NCBI GenBank assembly: GCA_022340585.1
Contig: JAJDNS010000024.1
Location: 1-64,000 of the forward strand
DNA: 64,000 nt
Reading direction: 5' to 3'
Source of the DNA: Acidobacteriota bacterium
GTDB taxonomy: Bacteria > Acidobacteriota > Vicinamibacteria > Fen-336
Position numbers and translations under genes: made by a program. This document shows positions 48,585 through 62,699 of the stretch, piece after piece (the stretch's first letter is position 1; each line of letters opens with the position of its first letter). Below the pieces are notes generated by a model that worked only from the letters and a program-made list of their open reading frames with translations, made no database searches and was not told the origin of the DNA.

Positions 48585-49928
48585 CTAGCGCAGCTGGGGC
48601 ATCCGGGCCGCCAGGCGCTTCATCGCCTTCGAGCCGGACCCCAGCCCCTTCATGAGCTTCCTGGTCTGCGCGAACTGTCGCAGCAGCCGGTTCACGTCCT
48701 GCACGGTGTTGCCGCTGCCCCGGGCGATCCGCTTGCGTCGGCTCCCGTTGATCACGGAAGGCTCCCGGCGTTCCCGCGGGGTCATCGAGTCGATGATGGC
48801 GATGGTGCGCCGTATCTCGCCCTCGCCGCGGTCGACGTCCACGCCCTTGAGCGAGCCCATCCCCGGCATCATGGACAGGACCTGGTCGAGAGGGCCCATC
48901 TTCCGCAGCTGCTTCATCTGGTCCCGGTAGTCCTCGAGGGAGAACTCGGACCGCCGGATCTTCCGGGCGAGCTCCTCGGCCTTCTCTTGCTCGACCGTCT
49001 CCTCGGCCCGGGCGATGAGTCCCAGCACGTCGCCCATCCCGAGGATGCGAGACACCATGCGGGCGGGCTCGAATGGCTCGAAGGCCTCCACCTTCTCGCC
49101 CAGCCCGGCGAACTTGATCGGGCGTCCGGTGACCGCCGTCGCCGACAGCGCCGCCCCTCCCCGGGAGTCGCCGTCCAGCTTGGTCAGCACGATCCCGGTG
49201 ATGCCGATCCTTCGATGGAACTCGTCCGCGCTGCGCACGGCGTCCTGACCGGTGAGGGCGTCGGCGACGTAGAGGACCTCGCTGGGCTCGGCAGCGGCCT
49301 GGAGCTCGGCGAGCTCGGCCATGAGCGCCTCGTCGATGTGGAGTCGGCCGGCGGTGTCGACGAGCACGAAGTCGTGCCCGACCGCCACCGCTTCGGCGAG
49401 GGCCGAGCGCAGGATGGCCAGCGGCGCGGTCTCGTCGGGGTGATGGACCTTGAGCCCAGCCCGCGTGGCGACCGTCTTCAGCTGCTCGCGGGCCGCCGGA
49501 CGGTACACGTCGGTCGAGACGAGCACGGGATGGCTGCCCCGCCCGGCCAGCCATCGGCCGAGCTTGGCGGTGGTGGTGGTCTTGCCCGAACCCTGGAGCC
49601 CGGTGATCAGCACGACCGACGGGGGACGCTTCGCCGTCTCGATCCCGGGGACGTCCCCTCCCCCGAGCAGAGACACCATCTCGTCGCGCACGATCCTCAG
49701 GACCGCCTGGTCGGGGTTCAGGCTCTTGAGAATCTCCTGCCCGGTGGCCCTGCTCCGGACTCGCTCGACCAGCTCCTTGACGACCTTGAAGTGCACGTCG
49801 GCCTCGAGCAGCGCGAGGCGGATCTCGCGGAGCGCAGCGTCGATCTGGGCCTCGGACAGGACTCCCTGGCCGCGCAGCGACCGGAAGACACCTTGAAGCC
49901 TTTCGCTCAGCGACTCGAACAAGGACAC
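48585..49928 (-). CDS. ffh: Signal recognition particle protein Ffh
   Basis: SLFESLSERLQGVFRSLRGQGVLSEAQIDAALREIRLALLEADV...LITGLQGSGKTTTTAKLG...DTAGRLHIDEALMAEL; M domain RIARGSGNTVQDVNRLL. Confidence 0.98.
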   Translation of the reverse strand: MSLFESLSERLQGVFRSLRGQGVLSEAQIDAALREIRLALLEADVHFKVVKELVERVRSRATGQEILKSLNPDQAVLRIVRDEMVSLLGGGDVPGIETAKRPPSVVLITGLQGSGKTTTTAKLGRWLAGRGSHPVLVSTDVYRPAAREQLKTVATRAGLKVHHPDETAPLAILRSALAEAVAVGHDFVLVDTAGRLHIDEALMAELAELQAAAEPSEVLYVADALTGQDAVRSADEFHRRIGITGIVLTKLDGDSRGGAALSATAVTGRPIKFAGLGEKVEAFEPFEPARMVSRILGMGDVLGLIARAEETVEQEKAEELARKIRRSEFSLEDYRDQMKQLRKMGPLDQVLSMMPGMGSLKGVDVDRGEGEIRRTIAIIDSMTPRERREPSVINGSRRKRIARGSGNTVQDVNRLLRQFAQTRKLMKGLGSGSKAMKRLAARMPQLR

Positions 49929-50058
49929 GCCACCCCGGTCGCCGACACACACCACTCCGCTCGCGCGGCGGGTTGGGCCCACGGGCGACCGTACAGGCAC
50001 GGGCCAACCCAAAGCAATAGACCATCTTATGTGGCGTCCCGGGTGCTGTCAAACAACG

Positions 50059-50128
50059 GGGGTCAGGTCGTGAATGTTGAATCTCCCCGGCCCTGGCCGT
50101 CCGAATTCAACATTCACGACCTGACCCC
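50059..50128. repeat. Palindromic element, 24-bp perfect inverted repeat with 22-nt centre
   Basis: GGGGTCAGGTCGTGAATGTTGAAT (50059-50082)/ATTCAACATTCACGACCTGACCCC (50105-50128). Confidence 0.92.
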
Positions 50129-50129
50129 T

Positions 50130-51338
50130 CTAGACGCTCCGCAGGAGGTGCCCCAGCTTGTCCTTCTTGGTCCGCAGGTAGCGCTCGTTCGCCTCGGAGG
50201 GCGAGATCTCGATGGGCACCCGCTCGGTGATGCTCAGGCCGTAGCCCTCGAGCCCGACGAACTTGCGGGGGTTGTTGCTGAGCAGGCGGAGCCTCTTCAC
50301 CCCCAGCTCGACCAGGATCTGGGCGCCGATCCCGTAGTCCCGCTGGTCGGCCTTGAATCCGAGCTCCTCGTTGGCCTCCACCGTGTCGCGACCCCGGTCC
50401 TGCAGCTCGTAGGCCATGATCTTGTGGACGAGGCCGATTCCCCGGCCCTCCTGGCGCAGGTAGAGCAGCACTCCACGCCCCTCGGCCGCGATCCGCTCGA
50501 GGGCCGTGTGGAGCTGGGCACCGCAGTCGCAACGAGTGGAGGAGAAGATGTCCCCGGTCAGGCACTGGGAGTGGACCCGGACCAGCACCGGCTCCCCCGA
50601 ACGGACGTCGCCCATGACCAGGGCCACGTGGTGCTCGCCGTCGATCATGCTCTCGAAGGCATGGACCCGGAAGGGACCGTAGTCGGTGGGCAGGCTCGCC
50701 TCGGCGATCTTGCGGACGAGGCGCTCGTGCTCCATCCGGTAGTGGATGAGGTCCCGGATGGTGACCAGCCGGATCCCGTGCTCCTGGCAGAACGGCTCGA
50801 GGTGGCGGACCCGGGCCATGGTGCCGTCCTCGTTCATGACCTCGCAGATCACCCCGGCCGGGTAGAGGCCGGCGAGGCGGGCCAGGTCCACCGCCGCCTC
50901 GGTCTGTCCCGCCCGCTGGAGGACTCCCCCCGCCACCGCCCGGAGCGGAAACATGTGCCCGGGGCGAGCCAGGTCCTCGGGGCCCGCCTTCGGGTCGATG
51001 GCGGTGAGGACGGTCTGGGCCCGGTCGGCGGCGGAGATGCCGGTTGTTGTTCCACGCTTGGCCTCGATGGGGACGCAGAAGGCGGTGCCGAACCGGGCGG
51101 AGTTCTGCTCGTCCTGGACCATGAGGGGAAGCCGAAGCTCGTCGAGCCGCTCGCCGGTCATGGGGAGACAGATGAGCCCACGCCCGTAGCGAGCCATGAA
51201 GTTGATGATGTCGGGGGAGACCTTCTCGGCGGCGATGGTGAGATCGCCCTCGTTCTCGCGGTCCTCGTCGTCGACGACGACGACCATCTTGCCCGCCTTG
51301 ATGTCCTCGAGCGCGTCGGGGATGGAGCTGAACGGCAT
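50130..51338 (-). CDS. ribBA: Bifunctional 3,4-dihydroxy-2-butanone-4-phosphate synthase/GTP cyclohydrolase II
   Basis: [31 protein letters not shown]...[61 protein letters not shown]. Confidence 0.98.
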
Positions 51339-62627: not shown

Positions 62628-62699
62628 GGGGTCAGGTCTTGCATTTTGCATCCGGATACGCGACGGATGACCGGACGCGCGACGACAAGACCTGACCCC
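62628..62699. repeat. Palindromic element sharing GGGGTCAGGTC termini with the one at 50059-50128
   Basis: GGGGTCAGGTCTTG (62628-62641)/CAAGACCTGACCCC (62686-62699), 14-bp perfect outer arms, inner TCCGG...CCGGA. Confidence 0.9.

Follow-up and report, generated by a model that had tools for sequence, protein, structure and literature searches.

The 70-bp palindrome behind ribBA is very probably a miniature, non-autonomous TIRtron element, the partner of HUH/Y1 transposases of the TIRYT class. It lies in the window, the 64,000-nt stretch of acidobacterial DNA that was analysed. This reading rests on a copy number and a frequency of pairing that both greatly exceed the controls, on the placement of the copies outside genes and near upstream stop codons, and on empty sites in a genome of the same genus. 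It also draws on the identical outer ends that flank a resident transposase gene and recur on both sides of many of its homologues, on inner arms that, in seven other genomes, correspond to the ends of the transposase resident there, and on the published motif of terminal inverted repeats (TIR). Y1 transposases flanked by GGGGWSAS inverted repeats have been described as TIRYTs or TIRtrons, and the corresponding TIR families are often dimers (Di Nocera et al. 2013, PMC3733652). Both ends of the window element, GGGGTCAG, fit GGGGWSAS.

The element reads GGGGTCAGGTCGTGAATGTTGAAT-(22 nt)-ATTCAACATTCACGACCTGACCCC, and both 24-bp arms are perfect (Table 1). ribBA runs on the minus strand from 51338 to its stop codon at 50132-50130, and a single base (50129) separates it from the palindrome. 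Reading the sequence confirmed what the preliminary description had reported here: a 24-bp palindrome without mismatches, a GC-rich apex of 22 nt, and a distance of one base from the ribBA stop. Folded as single-stranded DNA, the element reaches -31.7 kcal/mol, with a z score of about -11 relative to dinucleotide shuffles. Arms that pair without a mismatch over all 24 bp set the window copy apart in its family, where perfect pairing in most copies covers the outer 11 bp and little or nothing beyond; the family median of the folding z score is about -6, and 40 of the 52 listed elements are below -3. On its other side the window copy is followed by a promoter-like site of ffh, which is also readable in two other genomes (G001 and G006).

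Table 1. Features of the window that concern the palindromic element and its neighbours
Feature	Position	Strand	Remark
70-bp palindromic element, class A arms	50059-50128	.	Sequence reading, pairing search, folding
Left copy of the conserved 11-bp end GGGGTCAGGTC	50059-50069	+	
Right copy (inverted) of the 11-bp end	50118-50128	-	
Left variable inner arm GTGAATGTTGAAT	50070-50082	+	Right inverted copy at 50105-50117
22-nt apex, GC-rich	50083-50104	.	
ribBA coding sequence, 402 aa	50130-51338	-	Ends one base before the element
ffh, next gene in the same direction	48585-49955	-	Start codon as chosen by our gene caller
Promoter-like site TTGACA-17-TAAGAT facing ffh	50024-50052	-	6 bp beyond the element
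Second family member, class C arms, imperfect	62628-62699	.	Absent from G001

The palindrome belongs to a dispersed family in its source genome (G000: 231 contigs totalling 6.26 Mb, with a listed completeness of 100% and contamination of 5.16%), whose members were counted by pattern searches and in fetched stretches. The exact 11-mer GGGGTCAGGTC occurs at 166 sites (86 forward, 80 reverse), and the reversed motif at 6 (2 and 4). Facing pairs of the 11-mer with 16-77 nt between them number 38, against 0 for the reversed control, which argues that the palindrome is not a product of chance. If the two ends together are allowed one mismatch, the fetched stretches hold at least 52 paired elements of 50-108 bp. 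The strict pattern of the window copy matches two copies only (C10 and C114), both of them within this family of more than 50. The differences lie in the inner arms: class A has the arm of the window copy, class B carries CCGAATGTTGCAT-like arms and class C TTGCATTTTGCAT-like arms, as in the second copy of the window, and other arm classes also exist. One of these, TGTTGAG/GTGAGAACAC, has identical 11-bp ends, measures 72-108 bp and shows conservation that continues outside the ends (TACGCT before, GGGGCTC after); it is found at L032, L046 and L047 (C92, C141) and on C66, C82, C96, C130 and C138. Elements of classes A and B are locally dense around a transposase gene on contig C139 (L029, L030). 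When the classes were sorted roughly by hand, the two arms of one element matched each other no better than class-shuffled arms within the genome, and we make no claim of covariation between them.

None of the 52 listed elements lies inside a gene predicted by a simple codon-usage caller written for this analysis (the annotation was not used as a check), in fetched DNA of which about 90% is coding. In 34 of the 52 cases the element overlaps the upstream stop codon or sits at most 20 bp from it. Relative to a baseline of gaps from the same loci rather than the whole genome, convergent gaps are enriched among element sites (p = 0.007), and within tandem gaps 22 of 26 elements are closer to the stop than to the following start (p = 0.0005). 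For nine predicted open reading frames, the stop codon falls within an element. The position of copies just past stop codons could reflect an insertion preference, selection against other sites, or both. One further locus (L151, G000:C118:3600-4786) has a gene, which we take to resemble a DUF389-type membrane protein, with an A-type end on one side and an inverted C139-type end on the other; its stop codon falls inside the terminal 11-mer. We considered this stretch as a cargo element and rejected it: G001 has, about 2 kb apart on a single contig, one piece that matches this gene and another that matches the gene after it, and it is simpler to read the two ends as independent of each other.

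Occupancy was compared with G001, a genome of the same genus: its ribBA-ffh region can be aligned on either side of the element site at 84-87% and does not contain the 70 bp. Ten further sites, picked before G001 was seen, were compared with it. Six aligned on both sides (62628 of the window, C82, C137, C132, C19 and C38), and the element was absent from all of them. Hence, the seven comparable sites, both window copies included, are all unoccupied (7/7). In G001 little sequence separates the flanks at the ribBA site, at 62628, C82 and C137; at C132, C19 and C38 other sequence lies between them. At C132 the G000 frame stops within the element (ELFKGVRS*) and the G001 frame runs on to a stop of its own. 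The junctions of the two genomes differ by a few bases, and the exact target site is not readable from them. G001 carries one family element at another place. Judged from these alignments, the occupancy differences between the two genomes suggest that the elements move. The preliminary description had set two copies only, with constant occupancy among relatives, against its own proposal of a mobile element; what we found is 52 listed paired copies and empty sites at seven of seven comparable positions in G001.

These results also bear on the idea that the palindrome is not mobile but arose where it stands behind ribBA, as a terminator or RNA element retained for its function. A strong hairpin that follows a stop codon and precedes the promoter-like site of the next gene is what one would look for in such an element, and so are the enrichment of convergent gaps and the enrichment of T at the first two bases past the element ends, which is seen across the family. 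Yet identical ends occur at more than 50 places, the element is absent within the genus, no intrinsic terminator (a GC-rich hairpin with a T-tract) was detected at 49800-50400, and a search of Rfam returned nothing near a family's gathering score. Given the dispersed copies and the empty sites, we regard an origin in place as extremely unlikely. A putative present role of the window element as terminator or mRNA stabiliser is plausible, and one effect of it might be insulation between ribBA and ffh.

Two Y1_Tnp genes were found in G000, on C139 and C6. The ends of the C6 transposase are GGGGTCAGATC. The C139 gene is flanked by GGGGTCAGGTCCCAAACGTAGCCT and its inverted copy, so that its inverted ends share with the window copy an identical outer 11 bp. 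Its product (293 aa, translated from L030:4014; aligned homologues begin at M18) matches Y1_Tnp at 7e-13, and H77, H79 and Y136, the HUH motif and catalytic tyrosine, are invariant across ten sequences. The C-terminal helix-turn-helix is weak (HTH_23 at 0.0014, below the cut-off), and among solved structures none matched the protein by sequence. The association of the ends with this kind of protein extends far beyond the genome: when one mismatch is allowed, GGGGTCAG occurs within 150 bp on both flanks in 48 of a set of 80 homologues that spans many phyla. The reversed motif gave 0 such cases, and 20 shuffled motifs a mean of 0.55; a first count, based on exact matches and wider flanks, had given 37 of 80. 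These observations support the earlier proposal that the palindrome is a REP-like mobile element of the non-autonomous kind, with a link to a Y1-type transposase whose gene lies at another place in the genome.

The same proposal named the REP/RAYT class, and here the outcome is divided: mobility and the Y1 transposase stand, but the GTAG-tagged class does not, given the GGGGTCAG ends and the TIRYT-like C-terminal helix-turn-helix. With REP/REPIN elements of the classical, RAYT-mobilised type the window copy shares the inverted dimer, the placement at gene ends and the relationship to a Y1 transposase, and the C139 protein does match the REP_Tyr_transpos model at 3e-21. Its score of 75.8 bits is nevertheless below the cut-off of 80, GTAG is missing from the foot of the hairpin, and the single ends of the window copy form no hairpins of their own, the two arms pairing instead with each other. 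We therefore find a REP/REPIN identity very unlikely, and retain the TIRtron reading.

The comparison of genomes across the phylum links palindromes and transposases more closely. The paired pattern was found in 10 of 297 genomes, G000 among them, and the control pattern in none (0/297). All nine other palindrome-bearing genomes have a transposase homologue at E <= 1e-29, against 0 of ten hand-picked genomes that are free of palindromes. The association is not strict, as G020, G031, G044, G046 and G050 have a good homologue without an exact palindrome; in G001, where a palindrome is present, a homologue was not found. In seven other genomes (six of the nine plus G058, those where the ends were readable), the inner arm of the palindromes matches the ends of the resident transposase at 11.1 of 13 positions and those of the other genomes at 4.4 of 13, and the resident pairing is the best of 5040 assignments. 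Arms and ends were entered by hand in this comparison, and for G287 the end used was that at L221 rather than one next to the transposase that neighbours its palindromes. The loci fetched from G119, G178 and G024 showed no such ends. It is close to an even question, tilting slightly to the negative, whether TIRYTs use a two-part code, in which the near-universal 11-bp tag GGGGTCAGGTC would be combined with an inner arm, about 13 nt long and quick to diverge, by which each miniature family would be paired with its own transposase. If they do, the palindromes would be natural substrates for TIRYT transposases. We know of no biochemical test of a transposase of this class to date.

Within G000 the inner arm of the C33 element matches the C139 ends at 12 of 13 positions. 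The class A arm of the window matches them at only 6 of 13, and a cognate transposase for class A was not found in the assembly, where the ends of neither C139 nor C6 match the window inner arm. The class A copies, that of the window included, may nonetheless have been moved in trans by the C139 transposase despite their differing inner arm. In favour of this, many A and B copies share their length and a GTCCTC/GAGGAC core, and in a few elements one end is of class A and the other of class B (e.g. C139:10635 and C74:15985). The low match of class A and the close match of palindromes to the resident inner arm in the seven other genomes speak against it, and we consider mobilisation by C139 possible but somewhat doubtful.

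Whichever transposase acts, movement of a TIRtron element of this kind would begin with the hairpin, which would bring both element ends together on single-stranded DNA. The transposase would cut at the ends through a tyrosine (Y136 in the 293-aa protein), and the excised piece would be joined elsewhere. The insertion site of the window copy would have been the short stretch that separates the ribBA stop from the ffh promoter. Copies would persist mainly just past stop codons, and if ribBA transcription is terminated here, this would be a side effect.

TIRtrons and TIRYTs are a known kind of system, of which the window family is a further member. What it adds is a miniature family of considerable size, a longer end motif that is seen in many phyla, and arm matching in seven further genomes, which together make concrete substrate pairs and allow a first biochemical test of TIRYTs. 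The elements also reach into gene ends, as the nine stop codons within them show. Literature searches for the exact end motif returned nothing relevant. TIRYTs were described from repeats flanking a few dozen genes (Di Nocera et al. 2013, PMC3733652), and most have been assigned to subclass 2.1 of TnpA_REP, in a study that saw no REP-like sequences adjacent to genes of this subclass (Quentin et al. 2018, PMC6006769). With the published TIRtrons our system shares a Y1 gene between GGGGWSAS inverted repeats and moderately abundant repeat families that are often dimers. It differs in the longer end motif GGGGTCAGGTC, in the arm-to-transposase match, here compared across genomes, and in that class A of the window is without a matching transposase in the assembly. 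The HUH and tyrosine motifs, the C-terminal helix-turn-helix and the terminal inverted repeats are shared with TnpA_REP subclass 2.1, as judged from these features, whereas palindromic copies are abundant in G000 and the published study reported no adjacent REP-like sequences. REP/REPIN/RAYT systems likewise have short inverted dimers, mainly outside genes and near Y1 transposases, but the GTAG tag is replaced here by another end motif. Finally, like the MITEs of ordinary insertion sequences, these are short non-autonomous copies with the ends of a full element, whereas the transposase is of the HUH/Y1 type and not of the DDE type.
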